NCBI GenBank assembly: GCA_003577165.1 | Contig: QEUM01000001.1 | Location: 62,001-126,000, forward strand | DNA length: 64,000 nucleotides | Direction: 5' to 3' | Source: Armatimonadota bacterium | GTDB lineage: Bacteria > Armatimonadota > Fimbriimonadia > Fimbriimonadales > ATM1 | Part shown: positions 26,307-36,655 of the stretch, in pieces | Layout: the number at the start of each line of letters is the position of its first letter | Numbering within the stretch: position 1 is the first letter of the stretch | Notes under the pieces: generated by a model | Told to the model about the DNA's origin: nothing | Database searches by the model: none | The model's input: only the letters and a program-made list of their open reading frames with translations | Translations under genes and position numbers: made by a program

Positions 26307-27278
26307 ATGCGAGCCGCGGTTCTCGGAGGCGGGTCTTGGGGGACGGCGCTCTCCCTCGTTCTCGCACGAAACGGCAATGAGGTGGTTCTCTGGGGCCGAA
26401 ACTCGGCGGAAGCCGAGGCGATCCGAGTCCATCGCGAGAACCGCAAGTACCTCCCCGGCTTCGAACTGCCCGCGTCCGTCGAAGTCACGACCCAGCCGCC
26501 GACGACCTGCGACATGTGGGTGATCGCCGTCCCGAGCGCGGCGGTCCGCGAGGTATGCGCTCTACTCCCTCAAGATCCAGGCCCGGTCGTTCTGGCGGCG
26601 AAGGGCCTCGAACCCGGCTCAGGGAAGCGAATGACTCAAGTGCTTGCCGAGGAGCGGCCAGGCACATCTGGTTTGATTCTCAGCGGCCCGAATCTGGCGA
26701 TCGAGATCGCGAGGGGCGTCCCCTCGGCGACTGTCATCGCCGGGAGAGACCTCGATCTGGCGGACTGGGCACGGGCTCGGTTCATGGCTCCGACGTTTCG
26801 CGTGTACACCAATCCTGACGTTGTCGGCGTTGAGCTCGGAGGCGCGCTGAAGAACGTGCTCGCGGTCGGCGCGGGCATGAGCGACGGTCTCGGATTCGGC
26901 GACAACACGAAGGCGGCCCTCCTATCGCGTGGGCTCCGCGAGATGGCGACCATCGGGATGGAGTTGGGCGCCGAGATGGCGACGTTCATGGGGCTGAGTG
27001 GATTCGGCGACCTGTTCGCCACGGCGGTGAGTTCTCTCAGCCGTAACTACCGCGTCGGCCGTTTGCTCGCTCAGGGCTCCACCCTCGATGCCGCGCTGCG
27101 CGAAATCGGCCAGGTCGCGGAGGGCGTTCCGACCAGCGAGGCGGCCGTCCGGCTTGCGCAAGAGGCTCGAGTGGAGGCGCCGCTGCACGAGGCGATTCAC
27201 GCCGTGCTTTGCGGGGAACTGCGACCCCAAGACGCAGTTCGTTCGTTGATGGAGAGAACGCCTCGCGTCGAGATTTAG
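26307..27278 (+). CDS. gpsA: NAD(P)-dependent glycerol-3-phosphate dehydrogenase
   Basis: Makes sn-glycerol-3-phosphate from dihydroxyacetone phosphate for phospholipid synthesis. The 323-residue protein has the Rossmann loop [50 protein letters not shown] and the catalytic-lysine region [23 protein letters not shown]. Length is standard. The ATG at 26307 has no obvious Shine-Dalgarno. The stop overlaps the TAA of the convergent gene in another TTAG tetranucleotide at 27275-27278. Confidence 0.98.
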
Positions 27279-29914
27279 GGGACTCCCGCCGGCGCCGCAG
27301 CCTCCCGTATTTCAATGCCGTACAGACGGCCCGCTCCAGGCGCCTTGCTGACAAACCGAATGAAGCGGCCCAGCATGGGTCTTCGGCGATAAGCGACCGA
27401 GCGAACGCCGAAGTCCTTCGGATCGATCTCGCGGTCGAACGTCATCGCATCGCGAAAGTCGATTTCCGATGCGAACCTCAAGGCTTCGTTTGCGCGCGAT
27501 CCGGTTGTGTACACAAGGATGTCGAACTGCCGCCAGAAGGCATTCGTGTCTCCCGACATGACGAGTTTGATTTCTGCGATCTGTCGGTCGCGGCCGATGT
27601 CGATCTCAAACCAATCGCCCTCATCTGATCCGGCTTCATACGCAGTCTTTGGATCGCCGTCGAGCAACCGGGCGAGGTTCTCGGGGTCGGAGCCTCTCTT
27701 GTCGATGGCGACTTTGTTCTTCGCCCATTCCCTCGGGTCGATCGGGCGCGGACATATGTTGAAACGCAACTCAAAAACGAAAGCAGACTTGTTGCCGCGC
27801 GCGTAAGCATCGAATAGTTGCCACGCCTTGAGCCAGGCCCATTCGGTTTGTCCCGCGACGTCCAGCCGAGCGAGCAGCACGCCATTCGAGCCGACGACGT
27901 CGAGGCGTCCGAACGGATTCGGTCGAAGCGTGTGGCCCGTTTCTGTGGTGAAAGGCTCGTCGAGGCCGGTCGGCCGCGCGGGGAGGATCACGGTACCGCC
28001 CTCGATTTCCGCCTCGAAATCCGGTGGTCCGTCTTGGATGGCTCCGTTCTTCATTTGGTAGAACGAGACTCGTCCCGAAGGGATGGGACCGCCGCTGCGA
28101 TCCACGCACCGCGCAAGTACGACTTGGGGCATCGAGTAGAGGAACTCGCCATAGAAGCCACGGCGGTAGCCGAGGTTCATGTTGAGCGCGGCCACGTCGG
28201 TCAGAGCGTAAAGGTCTGTCGCTTCGAACAGCGGCCCCGTCGAGACGATTGTGTCGATCGGCTGATTCGGAATGGGTAGACCTACCGGCACGAGGGCTTC
28301 GTTCCGCGTGTCGCCACCTCCCATGAGGCCTCCCGCCACGTCAAACCTGCCGCGCGTGATGACATGCTCGCCGACTTTCAAACGGACTTTCCCCCCCTCG
28401 CCGCTCGGCAGCGAAGGGTCGACGTTCATCTGGTAGAGATCAATGAGACCGATCTGGTGGCTGCACTCATGGATGAGCGCTCGGTCGGCCTTCGCGCGCA
28501 CGTCGTTGATGTAACCCGCTGCGTTGCCGAATGAGGAATCGAATCCCCACTCTCCGTCATAGATCAGCGTGGGAGAGTCGTTTGGAAGATGCGCACCCCC
28601 GGCAAGGATTCCATTGTCCACGATCGTGATGCGACCTACCCTCACGCGTTCGCGACAACCGTCTTGAGCGAAACTGAAGCGACTCTGCGCGAGGAATACG
28701 TCATTCCAAATGCGAAATTGCCATTGAATCCAGTCCTCGAAGCTCCGAGTGCCGGTTCCGCTAACGCCTTTGGCGAACTCTTCGTAAAACCCCTTGTCTA
28801 CCCAGATGCCCAGATTCAGAGCGCACGCCTGAATCTCCAGGTAGTTGTTCCCTTTGGACGCATCCGCAGACGCGGGCTCGACTTGAAATGAGATGGGTTG
28901 CGTCCGATGATCCTTGTGGGCGTTTTTGAATTTCGTCTTCCATTCGATGCGCCTGCTCTCTCCCGGAGCGAGTGGCTGAGATACTTCGCCCGAAGAACTC
29001 GATTCGTCGTTCTCCGCAAACTCGTAGCGAAAACCGCCCGATGCCGAGGTGCCTACGTTCTTGATGACAGCGGTGTAAGTGACCTCTTCTCCATCCGCAG
29101 GCCACTTCTGTTCGTTCGCGGATCCTGGATTCATCATCACGCCGGACTCATGTCCTGCGACTTCCTTCCGAACGTACGCATCGCCACGGTTGTCATAGCG
29201 CTTATACTCAGGTGATCGCTCGATGCAGACGACGCTCAGATCCGCGCCACCTGCCGGCTCGGAGGGCGCCGTCTGAAGGATGAGTTTCGGCCGCCCATAT
29301 CGCGACTGCGCTGAGTTGCCCGCTGCGCTTCCTGAAAAGTCAATGCTCCATCCCCAGTTGTCGAACCAACGTTCGTACATGTCTTGCACGTCGGCTTCCA
29401 AACCGGTGAAGACGAGTTCTGCGGTGTCGCGCGCGACGGTGACGGTCGCTGACGCTTTAGAGTCCACGAATTTCTCGCCGCCCCTCTGCCAACGCCTGGG
29501 AGCGTCGAACGCGTTGAAGAACTGATAGACCCAAGTCGTGGCTCCGTGCAGAGGCGTCGCCTGTCGCTCGCCGAATCCTGGGCCCTCGTTCCATCTCGCA
29601 TGAAACCTCTTTAGCACCGCTTCCCCGGCCTTGCTCACGTGTTCGAGTTGAATCACGAGTTTGGCGGACAGGATCCGGCGGTTCGGACCGATCGCTCGCT
29701 CCAAGTCTGCAAACCGGATTAGAACTCTGCCTCCATCACCGAGCCAAAGGACGCTGCCCTGTCCGAAAGAGCGCTCCGGGTATTTCGGATCCAGGACCGT
29801 GTCCTCGGAGGACCAGTACCTTGTGTGCGGGTCTTGAGTCAGGGCGGCGCCTCGACTGAGTTCGACGGTGGTCGTCTGGAGGCCCAACGCAGCGATGAGC
29901 GCGGTCACAAACAT
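27275..29914 (-). CDS. Large secreted HExxH protein with DNRLRE-, CARDB- and discoidin-like domains
   Basis: The 879-residue protein seems to have four parts: a DNRLRE-like beta domain (about 30-215: SVLWLGDGGRVLIRFADL, ILSAKLVIQL, ARWNEGPGF), a CARDB-like domain (about 225-365: VTYTAVIKNVGTSASGGF), a metallopeptidase-like core (about 370-560), and an F5/8-type C-terminal domain (about 735-875). The core has H482-E483-C-S-H486-QIG-LI-D492, a HExxHxxGxxD motif as in some metzincins with Asp as third ligand. The N-terminus is hydrophobic but lacks positive charges; in-frame sequence before the ATG encodes RRAPSKLVT, with no canonical start codon. Substrate is unknown. It is last in the btuF-to-27275 minus unit. 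Confidence 0.7.
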   Translation of the reverse strand: MFVTALIAALGLQTTTVELSRGAALTQDPHTRYWSSEDTVLDPKYPERSFGQGSVLWLGDGGRVLIRFADLERAIGPNRRILSAKLVIQLEHVSKAGEAVLKRFHARWNEGPGFGERQATPLHGATTWVYQFFNAFDAPRRWQRGGEKFVDSKASATVTVARDTAELVFTGLEADVQDMYERWFDNWGWSIDFSGSAAGNSAQSRYGRPKLILQTAPSEPAGGADLSVVCIERSPEYKRYDNRGDAYVRKEVAGHESGVMMNPGSANEQKWPADGEEVTYTAVIKNVGTSASGGFRYEFAENDESSSSGEVSQPLAPGESRRIEWKTKFKNAHKDHRTQPISFQVEPASADASKGNNYLEIQACALNLGIWVDKGFYEEFAKGVSGTGTRSFEDWIQWQFRIWNDVFLAQSRFSFAQDGCRERVRVGRITIVDNGILAGGAHLPNDSPTLIYDGEWGFDSSFGNAAGYINDVRAKADRALIHECSHQIGLIDLYQMNVDPSLPSGEGGKVRLKVGEHVITRGRFDVAGGLMGGGDTRNEALVPVGLPIPNQPIDTIVSTGPLFEATDLYALTDVAALNMNLGYRRGFYGEFLYSMPQVVLARCVDRSGGPIPSGRVSFYQMKNGAIQDGPPDFEAEIEGGTVILPARPTGLDEPFTTETGHTLRPNPFGRLDVVGSNGVLLARLDVAGQTEWAWLKAWQLFDAYARGNKSAFVFELRFNICPRPIDPREWAKNKVAIDKRGSDPENLARLLDGDPKTAYEAGSDEGDWFEIDIGRDRQIAEIKLVMSGDTNAFWRQFDILVYTTGSRANEALRFASEIDFRDAMTFDREIDPKDFGVRSVAYRRRPMLGRFIRFVSKAPGAGRLYGIEIREAAAPAGVP

Positions 29915-29955: not shown

Positions 29956-31242
29956 TTAGGTTCGGATTTGCGAGACGATGTGCTCGACGGCCCGACGAAG
30001 TTGAGGGTCTTTCTCCGGGTTGCCGAACACGACCGTGTCGCCGTCCTTGTACTCTACTGTGATGTCCGGCGCGATCCCGCCGCTTACGTAGTTGCCGTCC
30101 TGATCTTCGACTCGTTGGATCGAAGCGCCGCTCGGAAGATAGTATCGCGCCACGGTGATCTTGACTTGGGCGCCACCGGGCATGTCCACAACGTCCTGCA
30201 CCACTGCCTTGCCGTATGTGTGTGCGCCGACAAGGGTTGCCGCGTTGTAGTCTCTCATCGCTCCCGCGAAGATTTCTGCCGCCGATGCCGTGTTCTCGTC
30301 TATCAAAAGGACGATTGGATAGGAGTGATCGAGGGCGAAGCCGGATGGGCTGTAGAAGTCGTCGGAGCGTCCGTTACGGTCGCGGATGGAGACGATCAGT
30401 CGGTCGTCTAGGAAGCGCGCCGCCATTTCAACTGCTGCCCGGAGCAGCCCTCCGGGATTTCCGCGGAGGTCGATGATGAGGCCGCTGATGCCCGCCTCTT
30501 GCAGCGCGGAGAGTTCTTCATCGAATTGCTCTACGATGGTCTCCGAGAAGGAGCGCACTTCGAGTCGGCCCACTTTCTCGGAATCTAGTCCGGCAACGCC
30601 GGTGATGACTTCCGAATAGACGTCTTGAATGTGAACGATTGCTCGGACGACCCGAAACGTCTTGGTTTCCTTCGTCTTCTCCCTGAACATCGTCAGCGAA
30701 ACCTCAGAGCCCGGTTCGCCACGAATCAGTTTTACGATCTCTTCGATGTCCTCGCCCGCGATGTTGACGCCGTTAACTTTGAGGATCACGTCCTCCGTCT
30801 TCACGCCGGCTGTTGCCGCGGGACTGTTCTTGAAAACGCGTCGCACCCTTGCGCCCAGAGGGTCTTTAGAAAGTTCTGCGCCAATTCCACCGCTCCCGAT
30901 GAAGACTCCGCGATTCCGCTCGTCGAAGCGTTCCGCTTCCTGAGGAGGCATCAGCACGGTATAAGGGTCGCGAAGTGCGCCGAGCATTCCCTGCACTGCG
31001 GCGAACGTCAACCTCTCTCGATCCGGTTTGCCGTAGAAGCCGTTGTCAATCGCGCGGATCGCCCTGCTAAAGGCCCGCGTCGGATCGAGGTCGGCTTGCT
31101 GCGTCTTGAGGCCGAGAGCGTCCGGTATGGTCGCGTACTGAGGAAGCCGCCCCGCGACTGCATCTCTCCAACCGTATCCGACCATGAGCCCCATCGAGAA
31201 GAGGCCGAGGAGACCCGCGAAGAACACGACTCGAGCCAACAC
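29956..31242 (-). CDS. ctpA: CtpA-type S41 carboxyl-terminal processing protease
   Basis: Periplasmic serine protease that trims C-termini or degrades tagged proteins. The 428-residue protein has an N-terminal anchor (about 4-26), a PDZ domain (about 112-200: GIGAELSKDPLGARVRRVFKNSP), and the S41 core with GLIIDLRGNPGG, the nucleophile S320 in ENTASAAEIF and the general-base K345 in HTYGKAVVQ. Both catalytic residues are present. The start is GTG at 31242, one base after the upstream S41 homologue, so they are co-expressed and may form mixed assemblies, which is inference. The substrate is unknown. Confidence 0.95.
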   Translation of the reverse strand: MLARVVFFAGLLGLFSMGLMVGYGWRDAVAGRLPQYATIPDALGLKTQQADLDPTRAFSRAIRAIDNGFYGKPDRERLTFAAVQGMLGALRDPYTVLMPPQEAERFDERNRGVFIGSGGIGAELSKDPLGARVRRVFKNSPAATAGVKTEDVILKVNGVNIAGEDIEEIVKLIRGEPGSEVSLTMFREKTKETKTFRVVRAIVHIQDVYSEVITGVAGLDSEKVGRLEVRSFSETIVEQFDEELSALQEAGISGLIIDLRGNPGGLLRAAVEMAARFLDDRLIVSIRDRNGRSDDFYSPSGFALDHSYPIVLLIDENTASAAEIFAGAMRDYNAATLVGAHTYGKAVVQDVVDMPGGAQVKITVARYYLPSGASIQRVEDQDGNYVSGGIAPDITVEYKDGDTVVFGNPEKDPQLRRAVEHIVSQIRT

Positions 31243-31243
31243 C

Positions 31244-32494
31244 CTACTTCCCCCCCCAGGTGGACTTGGAAAGCGGACGTCCTCTCAGCGAATGGTACCG
31301 CCCGGAAGTTAGAGTGAAGCCGCTGCCGTCGGGCAGTTCGTGCACATCGATCTTCAGTCCCAGTCCAAAAGTCGGCCCCCCCTCCAGCTCGAATCTGCCG
31401 GACTCCGACAGGGCGGAAGCGAACACTTCCGCAATCCTCGCCGTACCGGAGTTGACCAGAACCTTGCCCTTTACGGATGGGTCGCCACGACCGACAATGC
31501 GAAGTTCACGCGGCGGCGCGCCGGGCTCGGTCTCCAGTTTCGCGTATGCGCCAGGCTCCAGCAGCAATTCCAGGCACTCTTCCATCGCAGTTACGGACCC
31601 GCCGTAATTGTCGCGAAGGTCGAGAATCACTCCTGTTCGGTTTTGCAGAAACTCACGCAAACGCTCTGGTGTCTCATCTGTAAACAGGCGGATCGCGAGG
31701 GTGTTGCCCGAAGGTGCTTGCGGTTGAAGGTTGAAGCCGGTACGCTGTGCCTTGACCTTTAGCGGCTTGCCGGCTCGTATCACGATGAGATCCACAGCCT
31801 CGCCGTTCGTCTGAAGTTTGTCGATCGCTTCGATGACCGATATCATCGATTCGAACCGGCGCCGAGCGTCTTCGAACAGGGCGTCAAACTCTTCTCGCGT
31901 CAGTTTGCCTTGACCGACCATCGTGCTCGCGACGGTCAACTCATCAAAAAGCGATCGGCTCGCCACCCAAGAGCCAGAGATCTCTTCGATCACGTCACCG
32001 CTCTTCAGCCCGGCTTTCGCCGCAGGGCTCCCTTGGGGAACGGAGACGATCGTGACGGGAAGTTGGGGATGCTCTTCCGTCCCGGACACGAGGATCGCCA
32101 CGTCTGCGCCGATTCCCGACAGCCTTCCTTCGAGGCCATCGCGAAACCGCTTGAACTGTTCCGGATCGTAGTAGCGCGAGCCTGGGTCGCGCAGTTCGCC
32201 GAGAAGCGACTCGAGCGCTCCGCGCGCTAGTCCCGTTTCGTCGATTACCTTGTCAACGTATTGGCTTTCGACGATGCGGCGAACATCATCGAAGTAGGCG
32301 GTCGAACTGCGCCCACCCAGGGGCCGCGCAGTGTCGGTTCGTCCGTCCGCCGATGCGACGTATTCGGACTCCGCGTTATCGGGGAAGATGCCCTGATCCG
32401 CCTCGTACTTGTTGCGAAGGAGCCAGCCCGTCGCGATGCCCGCGAATCCGACAAGGAAAAAAGTCGCTAAGAAGAGGGTCGATCTGCGGGACAA
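31244..32494 (-). CDS. Catalytically dead S41 protease homologue
   Basis: The 416-residue protein has the CtpA layout: N-terminal anchor (about 7-26), a PDZ domain (about 125-250: GIGADVAILVSG, SPAAKAGLKSGDVIEEISG) with an insert at about 185-225, and an S41 core with GVILDLRDNYGG. But the Ser of 'TASAAE' is R353 (TARIAE), and the Lys of 'TYGK' is L378 (PTFGLGL). Both catalytic residues are therefore lost, yet the frame is intact and the fold residues are kept. It looks like a regulatory or scaffold subunit for the adjacent active protease. TTG start at 32494; 28 bases after rpiB. Confidence 0.88.
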   Translation of the reverse strand: MSRRSTLFLATFFLVGFAGIATGWLLRNKYEADQGIFPDNAESEYVASADGRTDTARPLGGRSSTAYFDDVRRIVESQYVDKVIDETGLARGALESLLGELRDPGSRYYDPEQFKRFRDGLEGRLSGIGADVAILVSGTEEHPQLPVTIVSVPQGSPAAKAGLKSGDVIEEISGSWVASRSLFDELTVASTMVGQGKLTREEFDALFEDARRRFESMISVIEAIDKLQTNGEAVDLIVIRAGKPLKVKAQRTGFNLQPQAPSGNTLAIRLFTDETPERLREFLQNRTGVILDLRDNYGGSVTAMEECLELLLEPGAYAKLETEPGAPPRELRIVGRGDPSVKGKVLVNSGTARIAEVFASALSESGRFELEGGPTFGLGLKIDVHELPDGSGFTLTSGRYHSLRGRPLSKSTWGGK

Positions 32495-32522
32495 GTTGGC
32501 GCTTCCTTAAACTGGGTGTTGC

Positions 32523-32987
32523 TTACGTGCTCGGCGCGCCTGTGCACTCACCGAGTTCTCGTATCTTCTGAACCCTTCGCACGTGGCGGGGTTCCATGCT
32601 CGGGGCCGCGCTCAGGAACGCTTCGAGGATTTTGACCGCTTCGTCCGGCTCGATGAGTCGCGCGCCCAGGCAGAGGACGTTCGCGTGGTTGTGCTCGCGC
32701 GTCAGCCGAGCCGACTCCTCGTTCCAGGCAACGGCCGCTCGAATCTCCGGGCACTTGTTGGCGGCCATCGACATGCCGATGCCCGTGCCGCAGATGAGAA
32801 CTCCAAAGTCGGCTTCCCCTTTGGAGACCCGGCGGGCGACTTCGCGGGCCGCATCAGGGTAGTCGTAGGCGGTCTCATCGGTCGCGCCGTACTCGGAGAC
32901 TGCGTATCCGAGGTCGACGAGGCGCGTGGTCAAAATGCGCCGGAGGGCAAATCCAGCGTGGTCCGATCCGAGCACGACGGTCCTCAT
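32523..32987 (-). CDS. rpiB: Ribose-5-phosphate isomerase B
   Basis: Interconverts ribose 5-phosphate and ribulose 5-phosphate. The 154-residue protein has the RpiB/LacAB marks: VVLGSDHAGF at the start, EYGATDETAYDYPD, GVLICGTGIGMSMAANK with the catalytic Cys, and REHNHANVLCLGAR. Length is normal. Its ATG shares four bases with the stop of the large secreted protein upstream, so a cytosolic sugar enzyme is coupled in translation to an exported protein, an odd pairing. Confidence 0.96.
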   Translation of the reverse strand: MRTVVLGSDHAGFALRRILTTRLVDLGYAVSEYGATDETAYDYPDAAREVARRVSKGEADFGVLICGTGIGMSMAANKCPEIRAAVAWNEESARLTREHNHANVLCLGARLIEPDEAVKILEAFLSAAPSMEPRHVRRVQKIRELGECTGAPST

Positions 32988-35900
32988 CTCCTTATCTCCG
33001 ATACGAGTTTGCGCACCTCAGCGTCGCGGTGCGAGGCGAGGCGATCCAGAAACCCAGCAGGCAACCGCAATTTTCCTGCCTTACCGGCCGAGAGCAGAGG
33101 AATGAGGACCTGACGGTAGTTCTCCCTCTCCCAAGCCTGGGCAGCAGCAGCGACGGCAGCCGGGTCTATTGTCAGGAGGGCCTGCACGGCCGCCGCTCGC
33201 ACATCGGGGTCGGGATCTGTGAGCAACGGCGAAACTTGAGGTGCGTGCTGAGGCGAAGGCTGACTTGCGAGCTCTTCGAGGATGATCCGTCGAATGTCCG
33301 GATCGTCCTCCTTGAGGCCGATGTAGCCTCGCGACCGGAGCACGGGGTCCGCGCTCCTCGTCAACTTCGCGTAACTGACGGCGCGAACACGGTTGGACTC
33401 GTCATTGACGCTCCCGAATTCGACCTGCCGCGCGGCGGGATCGAAGGCGACGTCGGCGAGTCGCGTGACCTCCCATCGGTTGAACGGATCGACGTCGTGG
33501 ATGAAGGTCATCAGCGCGCCTTGAGCGGCTTCGCCAGGGATCTGGCCGATGCCCTGGGCGCCGGCTCTGCGGCCTAAGGCGGACGAGCAGGCGAACATCA
33601 CGATCAGGTCTTTCAGGTACTTAGGATCCTTTCTGGTACCGAGTTGCAGGGCGGCTTCGGCGGCTGGCAGGTCGCCGTACCTTCGCGTTCTCGGCATTTC
33701 GGCCAGCGCTGCCCATGCCTCTTCCGTGTCCTGGTAGGCGAGCGCCCGTGCGGCCCACATCCCGATGCGCGGCTCGGCGTCTGCGACCATTCTTCGCACG
33801 AGATCCGGCACGACCTCCGGGAGTTTCACGCGGGTGAACGCCCGGACCGCGTTGAGTCGGACCAATGGAGAAGTGTCGGCGAGCAGAGCACGCACCGCTG
33901 TGATCTCTTCAGGCGAGGACTCGGCCTTTAGGTTTGCGGCGGCTCTTGCTCGCTCGCGCAGGTCTGTCGAAGTTGGATTCGCCCCCCCCTTGATCTCCGT
34001 ATCGGGATCCGTCTCGACCTGCGGCGCGAACGACGAAGCGTTCGGCGAGGAGGCGATGCGAACCTCGTCTACGAAGTGTTCGCTGCGGAAGTCTCCGTGC
34101 CACTGGTTGCTGCTGAACTGGCGAGTGTCGCCGAATCCTATGTCAACCACGACGTGAGGGCCTGGCCCCGCAGCGGCAGCGAGCGCTGCACCCAAATCGT
34201 ACACGACTCTGTGCCACTGGCCGTCGGGAATGAACGACGCGCGTGGCAGTTCCACGCTCTCCCCCCATTGCTCATGATAGGGACCGGCGAGCATCACCAC
34301 ATACCGCTTCCCATTCGAGAGCGTGACGGCGAGGCCGACGTTGTGATGGGCGGTCGTCTTCAAGTAGAAGTCGAGGATCGGGTAGTCGGCTGCGTCGTAC
34401 CCCATGTTGTCGGGAGCGAGCGCTCCGCTCTCCGAGCGTTTGCCGAAGAAGTTAACTCGGCCCCACAGCGAACCGCCTGTGTCCAAGATTCGCAGACAGT
34501 TGCCGTTGACCCCCCCCGAGACGGTCGAGACTTCCCATCCATTCCGATCCGCCCGAGGTTCACCCCAGGTGCCCACGCCGCTTTCGAAGGTCTCCTCCGT
34601 GAGGAGACCCGGGCCCTGCCGGAAGAGGCTCAGCCTCTGTGTGTCCACGGGAGCTGCGGAACCGGCGACGCGAATGTCGAGGGCGATTTCGAATTGTCCG
34701 AATGTCGCGTCAGCGGAAGCCTCCAACGTGAACGGGATCACTCGCTTTTCGCCTGCGGATAGTGAAACCTGTGGTGGCAAGCCTTGAATTGAGAATCCGG
34801 TCGGCGCGCTGGCGCTCAATTCCACAGCCTTCGCCGCGGCCGGACTCTCAAGGACGAGTTCCAGCCTATGCGTTGAAGACGAGACCCTCGCCGTGTCTTG
34901 GGCGCGGAGCGTCGAAACGACTTCTCTGCGCCAACGAACGACGAACGGTCGCTCGGAGCGCGTGCCGTCCTGCTGAACGGCCGTAACCCGCAAAAGCCTG
35001 GTGGCGGCTTCGTTCGACGTTTCACCAATCTGTCCGGCGGCGTTGATGCGAACCGCGTCGCCTTCCCAGGAGGTGACGACGTAGCGCACGTCCGACGTAT
35101 CGGAACGGAATGAAACCGCTGGCGATTGTCCGACGAGCGGTTCGTCCGTGCCGGAAGTAGAAATTCTCGCCGGGCCGTTTGAGAACGAAAGGAGGTTCAC
35201 CTCGCAGGCGGCGTCGTTGTTCAAGCGCGCGTCTGCGACGACCATAAAGCGTCCGTCTACTTCGATGTAGCCAAGAACGCACGGCGTACCAGGAACCAAG
35301 TTCGACAGGACGAAGTCCGCGACGTCGAAACGGACGAACAAGAGGTCGCGATCTCCGTATCCGATGCGCGCCATCGCCTCGGTTCTGAAATTGAGGTGGT
35401 TGTTCAGAGAGTGGTCGGTCGCAGAAGGAGCGGTGAGAATCGGCGTCCGGTACTTTCCTCCCGTCGGCTTTACCAGGAGAAGAGGCCCATCGCCTTGAAA
35501 CGCGACCGATTCTGCGCCGATTCTGGCAGCGATGTCCTCCGGACGCAGATAGGGCAGTTTCGCCCACGGATCATCGGAGACGTCCTTCCAGTCGAACAGC
35601 CTTCCGTCGCCTCTATGGGTTTGCAGAAAGGCTTGTTCCCAGTCCGGGGACACGCGGTTCGATAATCTCTCCCACATGCCGGGGCGGACGCTGTGGAACA
35701 TCAGGTCGCGGAGCCACGAAAACCAGCCGGTATAGCCGACCTCGTCAACTGAATAGCCATTGACCTCCGCCGCGTGGAGGTTTGGCGGCCAGGCGTACTC
35801 CCAGTCGCCGTATCCCCAGATGCGATAAGTGTCTTCGATCTGGTGGAACCACTCGTGCAACATCGCCTCCGTGTGGCCGATTCTCAATCCGCCTTCTCTA

Positions 35901-36655
35901 CCGTTGGAGAGGATCACGTAAGACTGAGTCGCGTTGTTCGTGCGGCCGCCTGTGCCGCCGAAACTGTACGAGCGTGTCGCTCCGGGGTGAAAGAAGTACA
36001 GGATCGCATCGTAATCGCCGCGATTGAAGCGATTGGTGAAAAACTCATGGCCCGCGGTCCAGGGATCGTAGGTCCAGGTATCAGTCGCGGAGTAGCGCCC
36101 GTAGATCGGCTCTTCTTCGAGCGTTGCGTCGATCTGCACGTCGACTGCGCCCTGCGTGAACGCCTCGACGAGGGCTTCGTAGCGCGCGAACGTCTCCAAG
36201 CAGAACAGGACTTCCGGATTGTTGATGTAGCCGGCCTGTATCTCCATCACGCCGTCGGCACGGAGGTACTCCACTTCGGTTCGCCGAAAGATCGCAGCCC
36301 GCACCTTCCACACGTTCGTCTTTCCGCTTGCGATTCTCTGTTGCGCAGTCTCGTAGAGCGTGCGGAATTCATCCCAACCGCCTGCGCCTCGAAACGCGCG
36401 TCCGAGGTTGCCGAACTCGTTGAGTTGAATCTTCCACCCGCCCCACTCTATGGCTGGTACGTCACTCGAAAACGTAACGGGAGCCTTGGACGGAAACTTG
36501 ATGTCGACCTCTTGCGCCGGTATCTGCTTTCCGTAAATGTCGCGGTATCCGAAGAACGTCTTCTTGCCGATGCTGATCCACTCGCCGGACTGCGCCTGTG
36601 CAGCGACGGCAGCATGGATCGCTAATAGAGCGGCGACTCGCAATTCGATCTTCAT
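32984..36655 (-). CDS. Giant secreted HExxH protein with C-terminal HEAT repeats
   Basis: The 1223-residue protein has a signal peptide (MKIELRVAALLAIHAAVAAQAQ, cleavage after about 22). The N-terminal region (about 25-400) contains the candidate zinc site H267-E268-W-F-H271 (MLHEWFHQIEDTYR), with H294 and E297 (NLHAAEVNGYS) as possible third ligands. The middle is beta-rich: Ig- or NPCBM-like stretches (about 560-720) and a jelly-roll-like part (about 720-900: GNCLRILDTGGSLWGRVNF). The end (about 930-1223) is HEAT-like, as in LVRLNAVRAFTRVKLPEVVPDLVRR and DPDVRAAAVQALLTIDP. No close named family is recognised. It overlaps mtnP and rpiB by four bases each. Confidence 0.75.
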   Translation of the reverse strand: MKIELRVAALLAIHAAVAAQAQSGEWISIGKKTFFGYRDIYGKQIPAQEVDIKFPSKAPVTFSSDVPAIEWGGWKIQLNEFGNLGRAFRGAGGWDEFRTLYETAQQRIASGKTNVWKVRAAIFRRTEVEYLRADGVMEIQAGYINNPEVLFCLETFARYEALVEAFTQGAVDVQIDATLEEEPIYGRYSATDTWTYDPWTAGHEFFTNRFNRGDYDAILYFFHPGATRSYSFGGTGGRTNNATQSYVILSNGREGGLRIGHTEAMLHEWFHQIEDTYRIWGYGDWEYAWPPNLHAAEVNGYSVDEVGYTGWFSWLRDLMFHSVRPGMWERLSNRVSPDWEQAFLQTHRGDGRLFDWKDVSDDPWAKLPYLRPEDIAARIGAESVAFQGDGPLLLVKPTGGKYRTPILTAPSATDHSLNNHLNFRTEAMARIGYGDRDLLFVRFDVADFVLSNLVPGTPCVLGYIEVDGRFMVVADARLNNDAACEVNLLSFSNGPARISTSGTDEPLVGQSPAVSFRSDTSDVRYVVTSWEGDAVRINAAGQIGETSNEAATRLLRVTAVQQDGTRSERPFVVRWRREVVSTLRAQDTARVSSSTHRLELVLESPAAAKAVELSASAPTGFSIQGLPPQVSLSAGEKRVIPFTLEASADATFGQFEIALDIRVAGSAAPVDTQRLSLFRQGPGLLTEETFESGVGTWGEPRADRNGWEVSTVSGGVNGNCLRILDTGGSLWGRVNFFGKRSESGALAPDNMGYDAADYPILDFYLKTTAHHNVGLAVTLSNGKRYVVMLAGPYHEQWGESVELPRASFIPDGQWHRVVYDLGAALAAAAGPGPHVVVDIGFGDTRQFSSNQWHGDFRSEHFVDEVRIASSPNASSFAPQVETDPDTEIKGGANPTSTDLRERARAAANLKAESSPEEITAVRALLADTSPLVRLNAVRAFTRVKLPEVVPDLVRRMVADAEPRIGMWAARALAYQDTEEAWAALAEMPRTRRYGDLPAAEAALQLGTRKDPKYLKDLIVMFACSSALGRRAGAQGIGQIPGEAAQGALMTFIHDVDPFNRWEVTRLADVAFDPAARQVEFGSVNDESNRVRAVSYAKLTRSADPVLRSRGYIGLKEDDPDIRRIILEELASQPSPQHAPQVSPLLTDPDPDVRAAAVQALLTIDPAAVAAAAQAWERENYRQVLIPLLSAGKAGKLRLPAGFLDRLASHRDAEVRKLVSEIRR

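Follow-up and report, generated by a model that had tools for sequence, protein, structure and literature searches.

A conserved, catalytically dead S41 protease homologue encoded beside ctpA in Armatimonadota, a candidate partner of CtpA

Background

The closest described relatives of the protein considered here are the C-terminal processing proteases (CTPs) of MEROPS family S41A, including CtpB of B. subtilis and CtpA of P. aeruginosa and H. pylori, with which it shares both its fold and a domain order of membrane anchor, N-terminal dimerisation helices, PDZ domain in the cap, and protease core. The catalytic triad of B. subtilis CtpB is Ser309-Lys334-Gln338, and its Arg168-type sensor couples substrate binding to activation (PMC3808539). 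For the hexameric CtpA proteins of H. pylori and P. aeruginosa (HpCtpA and PaCtpA), no more than one subunit per N-dimer can be active, and the other must rest (PMC12749690, PMC11021448). This asymmetry is not universal, since B. subtilis CtpB activates both subunits. The protein described here, referred to as pseudo-CTP, differs from these enzymes in having neither the Ser-Lys-Gln triad nor the Arg168-type sensor, and in carrying a two-helix insert in its PDZ domain.

A further likeness is to LbcA-CtpA and NlpI-Prc, since here too we propose that a CTP has a non-proteolytic envelope protein as its dedicated partner, and there is a link to genes of peptidoglycan hydrolysis. However, the LbcA and NlpI adaptors are helical or TPR lipoproteins and not protease paralogues, whereas pseudo-CTP has the CTP fold and no TPR. 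ClpP/ClpR is built from paralogous subunits, some of them dead and some live. Together with CspC-CspA of C. difficile (PMC12880746) and iRhom-ADAM17 (PMC11248996), it shows how a catalytically dead protein of protease fold can form assemblies with other proteins or regulate them, although all three belong to protease families different from S41/CTP. Retinol-binding protein 3 has an S41-related fold without a peptidase role, but is a eukaryotic repeat protein with no CTP partner gene and no PDZ-CTP architecture. A literature search that covered a minority of the papers in subscription journals yielded no account of an S41/CTP pseudoprotease acting as a partner.

The gene pair and its surroundings

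The window is a stretch of 64,000 nucleotides from a genome of the phylum Armatimonadota, order Fimbriimonadales, with a size of 2.75 Mb and a completeness of 97.5%, and the features discussed below are collected in Table 1. The original prediction described a 416-residue S41 homologue with both catalytic residues replaced and no frame damage, one base away from an intact ctpA. Translation confirms R353 (TARIAE) and L378 (TFGL) in this protein, and S320 (TASAAE) and K345 (TYGK) in its neighbour; base 31243 alone separates the pseudo-CTP stop from the ctpA start, and the pseudo-CTP reading frame is open throughout. The PDZ domain and GVILDLRDNYGG, which had been reported as kept, are both present, the former by Pfam match.

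Table 1. Coordinates of the gene pair and associated features in the window
Feature	Position	Strand	Basis and remarks
pseudo-CTP (S41 pseudoprotease)	31244..32494	minus	416 aa, TTG start, stop included; ORF, Pfam S41 + PDZ, orthologs
ctpA (active CTP)	29956..31242	minus	428 aa, GTG start; triad S320/K345/Q349
N-terminal dimerisation region of pseudo-CTP, residues 64-122	32129..32305	minus	CtpB_N-like PF22694 match just below cut-off; conservation close to that of CtpA
PDZ carboxylate-binding loop GIGA of pseudo-CTP, residues 127-130	32105..32116	minus	kept; equals CtpB Gly113-Ala116
PDZ region of pseudo-CTP with two-helix insert, residues 181-222	31829..31954	minus	AlphaFold model
R353 of pseudo-CTP, at catalytic Ser position	31436..31438	minus	codon AGG, within TARIAE
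L378 of pseudo-CTP, at catalytic Lys position	31361..31363	minus	within TFGL
I382 of pseudo-CTP, at catalytic Gln position	31349..31351	minus	alignment; CtpB triad from PMC3808539
S320 of CtpA, nucleophile	30283..30285	minus	present, in TASAAE
K345 of CtpA	30208..30210	minus	present, in TYGK
Q349 of CtpA	30196-30198	minus	present
Shine-Dalgarno-like AAGGA of pseudo-CTP	32504..32508	minus	sequence; 9 nt 5' of TTG start
rpiB, next gene upstream of pseudo-CTP	32523..32987	minus	PF02502

Both proteins match Peptidase_S41 (PF03572), with 65.3 bits for pseudo-CTP and 161.1 bits for CtpA against a Pfam cut-off of 24, and both have a PDZ match (PF13180 with 28.3 bits in pseudo-CTP, cut-off 27). CtpA is a full CTP by TIGR00225 (281 bits, cut-off 219). 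The PF22694 match of pseudo-CTP, at 23.1 bits, is just below the cut-off of 27, and the N-terminal helices are seen in the structural model. Pfam found S41 and PDZ but no TPR in pseudo-CTP.

The upstream rpiB gene is likely co-transcribed with pseudo-CTP, and probably plays no role in the mechanism proposed below. At positions 31251-31258, within the last pseudo-CTP codons before the ctpA start, the plus strand has eight C residues (eight G in the mRNA) that may serve as a Shine-Dalgarno sequence for ctpA; slippage at this run would alter only the final residues of the pseudoprotease. Two large proteins, both on the minus strand (27275-29914 and 32984-36655), flank rpiB, pseudo-CTP and ctpA. 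Each has a conserved HExxH motif resembling that of zinc proteases (HECSHQIGLID and HEWFHQIED), and these motifs are preserved in five related loci (L049, L050, L052, L053 and L054) wherever the genes are present. Pfam and NCBIfam named no peptidase in these flanking proteins, only CARDB, F5/8C and HEAT repeats.

Loss of the catalytic triad

Alignment places the CtpB triad on CtpA S320-K345-Q349, with CtpB Gln338 corresponding to CtpA Q349 and to pseudo-CTP I382, such that the entire triad is replaced in pseudo-CTP by R353, L378 and I382. Because the triad is absent, pseudo-CTP is not classed as an active CTP peptidase (S41A). Among eight orthologs from the window's family, seven carry Arg and one carries Lys at the Ser position, and all have Leu or Met at the Lys position. 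When 69 orthologs are aligned, the residues found at the Ser position are G (38), N (10), R (8), D (8), S (4) and K (1), and those at the Lys position are D (28), E (10), L (8), S (7), H (4), N (3), K (2) and others. The four orthologs with Ser carry Asp or Glu in place of Lys, and the two with Lys carry Asp in place of Ser, so that the dyad is found in none of the 69. The downstream partner CTPs, by comparison, have Ser, Lys and Gln in all 66 that were aligned.

This breakage of the dyad in every ortholog examined exceeds chance. No intact-dyad homologue was found at the locus among the 69 aligned orthologs, so that the first refuting condition of the original prediction did not arise, and phylum-wide orthologs rule out both a local mutation and a pseudogene. 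The original call of a pseudoprotease without frame damage is strongly supported, and comparison of the sequences supports well the view that pseudo-CTP is a conserved, catalytically dead protease homologue.

Distribution across Armatimonadota

The eight examined genomes of the window's family, all with an ortholog, represent seven genera. Searching the phylum with an 8-row profile matched 202 of 291 Armatimonadota genomes (E<=1e-25), and a 69-row profile matched 199 of 291 (E<=1e-40). Seven of the weakest among these 199 matches are single ordinary CTPs, which places the number of carriers at about 192 of 291 genomes; carriers span 22 families (family codes such as f2 and f3 are those of the search tool). 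Approximately one third of Armatimonadota genomes have no pseudoprotease and a single CTP instead. Among 106 genomes of other phyla, four passed the 1e-40 threshold, all with ordinary active CTPs that have no PDZ insert. A contig scan with one family-specific peptide pattern matched family members only and, being confined to that pattern, says little about distant relatives.

Some copies depart from the general pattern. The pseudoprotease of one genome (G077) is interrupted by stops, and those of two small 1.5-Mb genomes (G132, G133) are degenerate; these broken or diverged copies (L091, L097 and L098, respectively) may be real losses or assembly errors. In genome G076, a third S41-like gene follows ctpA (L075:5950-7320), with the Ser-like position kept and Asp for the catalytic Lys, and may be another pseudoprotease. 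Family f24 has a pseudoprotease (L119:1417-2877, genome G202) whose triad positions are occupied by G, R and Q and whose gene precedes that of an active CtpA. The PDZ helical insert is absent from this protein, a state that possibly reflects early branching or a secondary loss of the insert.

Features kept, lost and gained

The AlphaFold model of pseudo-CTP is a confident CTP fold (pLDDT 90.9) whose best PDB matches are CtpB and CtpA. The N-terminal hydrophobic anchor is kept, as are the N-terminal dimerisation helices in the model, and both glycines of the GxG in the PDZ carboxylate loop are found in 69/69 orthologs. The position of the Arg168-type sensor, located by means of the CtpB R168A chain 4c2f, holds R or K in 62 of the 66 active partners and is replaced in the pseudoprotease clade. 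The two-helix PDZ insert (residues 182-215, with helices at 182-194 and 200-215 in the model) is absent from active CTPs. Unlike in S41A CTPs, the C-terminal dimerisation helix is missing in the window's family and in f2, whereas a recognisable version is present in most other families. The losses of the Gln position, the sensor and this C-terminal helix, and the gain of the PDZ insert, go beyond the original prediction.

Across the N-terminal dimerisation region, the pseudoprotease has a mean identity of 0.35 and CtpA one of 0.37; for the catalytic core the values are 0.37 and 0.55, respectively. Selection on the dimerisation part of the pseudoprotease has barely been relaxed. In a mirror-tree and partial Mantel analysis the NTD-NTD correlation was the highest (r 0.74), and is not taken as proof because the partial value is weak (0.27).

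Linkage and origin

The tandem arrangement was recovered at every testable locus: at all 66 loci whose partner is essentially complete, the pseudoprotease gene directly precedes ctpA in the same orientation, and the other three of the 69 are at a contig edge or have only part of ctpA. An ATGA overlap of the two genes is found in five of the seven family loci that have both. The wider neighbourhood varies, with RpiB upstream in the window, RpiB downstream in f3, and unrelated genes elsewhere. No natural fusion of the pseudoprotease and CtpA was seen, the longest open frame among the profile matches listed being 697 aa.

In f26, f27 and f32, the pair is about 2 kb downstream of ftsX, with the gene order ftsE-ftsX-envC(M23)-pseudoprotease-ctpA-polysaccharide deacetylase in f32. 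In f8 and f25, families with a single ctpA, ftsX also adjoins ctpA. For comparison, the order in P. aeruginosa is envC-ctpA-PA5135, where PA5135 is the ortholog of E. coli sddA (PMC12569750). A place inside an ftsE-ftsX-envC-ctpA operon is likely ancestral for the pseudoprotease, judging from these gene orders.

In a quick tree, in which long branches could inflate monophyly, the 37 pseudoproteases sampled group together as a single clade (SH-aLRT 100), and this clade falls inside the Armatimonadota set when four CTPs of other phyla serve as outgroup. The shared position and the shared PDZ insert (outside f24) argue the same way. A single origin and strict pairing with ctpA are well supported by sequence comparison, with one ctpA duplication within the ftsE-ftsX-envC-ctpA operon as the parsimonious reading.

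Resting-like and active-like models

AlphaFold models of the pseudoprotease and CtpA were made separately, as single chains. For the pseudo-CTP model, TMq is 0.53 against the resting CtpB structures 4c2e and 4c2h but 0.45 against the active ones, 4c2c and 4c2g. Of the two PaCtpA chains, it resembles chain B (0.52-0.53) more than chain A (0.40-0.41). The reverse is found for the CtpA model, with 0.58-0.59 for active versus 0.47 for resting CtpB, and 0.69-0.71 for PaCtpA chain A versus 0.47-0.48 for chain B. From the agreement with the labelled CtpB states, we infer that PaCtpA chain A is the activated subunit. Opposite states for the two models would be expected by chance about 1 time in 4, and could reflect the two alignments.

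A proposed resting half of the CtpA N-dimer, and its rivals

In the explanation that we favour, the gene encodes a membrane-anchored, cell-envelope pseudoprotease of CTP fold with a single origin in Armatimonadota. A ctpA duplication in the ftsE-ftsX-envC-ctpA operon probably gave rise to it, and it has since been inherited beside ctpA. Sequence conservation and linkage suggest a dedicated non-cutting partner of CtpA. In the proposed mechanism, the N-terminal dimerisation region, which both proteins have, is most likely where the pseudoprotease binds CtpA, and the pseudoprotease would form the permanently resting half of the N-dimer, with CtpA as the half that cuts; having neither the triad nor the Arg168-type switch, it would find the working state out of reach. 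Since the carboxylate loop has been kept, the pseudoprotease may also present substrate C-termini, by means of this loop and the helical insert. Peptidoglycan hydrolases, or activators of these, are the probable substrates, judging from the FtsEX-EnvC neighbourhood and from what LbcA-CtpA and NlpI-Prc are known to act on. A physical partnership with CtpA is likely; we infer the contact itself, as we do the heterodimer, the direction of regulation and the substrates. The original suggestion of a subunit that controls or scaffolds CtpA stands for its pseudoprotease part and gains indirect support for the rest, from linkage, the retained dimerisation region, the complementary AlphaFold states and the asymmetric N-dimers of H. 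pylori and P. aeruginosa. Several points weigh against the explanation: the dimerisation-domain match is below the Pfam cut-off, about a third of the genomes manage with a single CTP, B. subtilis CtpB activates both of its subunits, the partial distance correlations are weak, and the opposite model states could be due to chance or to the two alignments. From the models and the analogy with these enzymes, a resting half appears to be the best-supported specific mechanism, and the explanation as a whole, from envelope pseudoprotease and single duplication to resting half and possible presenter of substrates, we consider evenly poised between right and wrong.

The same conserved carboxylate loop would also suit a substrate-delivery adaptor, whose PDZ domain binds the C-termini of envelope proteins and passes them to CtpA homo-oligomers in the manner of LbcA or NlpI, replacing no CtpA subunit. 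The helical insert could serve as a docking surface, and other CTPs use dedicated adaptors (PMC11021448, PMC5686067). However, pseudo-CTP retains a complete CTP fold, N-terminal dimerisation region and all, under near-CtpA constraint, which an adaptor would not require, and this reading appears unlikely. Less likely again is an inhibitor that caps CtpA and keeps it at rest until released by a signal. The resting-like state of the pseudoprotease model is consistent with such a role, and pseudoprotease partners can restrain proteases, as iRhom2 does ADAM17 (PMC11248996), but the CtpA model, though folded alone, prefers an active-like state, and the requirement for one resting subunit in known N-dimers fits an enabling role equally well.

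That pseudo-CTP is an independent binding protein, with a non-proteolytic envelope role of its own and merely an operon-mate of ctpA, is lower still in our estimation. Non-proteases with an S41 fold do exist, retinol-binding protein 3 being matched by both search profiles, and the PDZ insert is an innovation; against this, the tandem linkage persists while other neighbours change, and the ATGA overlap recurs in most family loci. A functionless product, either a decaying duplicate or a local loss-of-function mutant, is barely credible. The catalytic residues are gone, the sequence evolves faster than that of CtpA, and a few genomes (G077, G132 and G133) have broken or degenerate copies, but an open, alignable and confidently folded protein is conserved in 22 families.

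Implications

If the resting-half model is true, no earlier S41/CTP pseudoprotease partner would be on record, to judge from the literature searched, and the gene pair is tied to the FtsEX-EnvC system of peptidoglycan hydrolysis. Having one active subunit per N-dimer costs the CtpA of P. aeruginosa and H. pylori half of its molecules. It is conceivable, though we hold this more tentatively than the explanation above, that most Armatimonadota lineages have an obligate heteromeric CTP in which a dead paralogue has replaced the resting half, fixing the asymmetry genetically and leaving that half free to evolve its own substrate-binding surface. A phylum in which one gene apparently supplies the live role and another the resting one represents a natural experiment on CtpA asymmetry, and a heterodimer with one permanently active and one permanently resting half would allow each half to be mutated separately.
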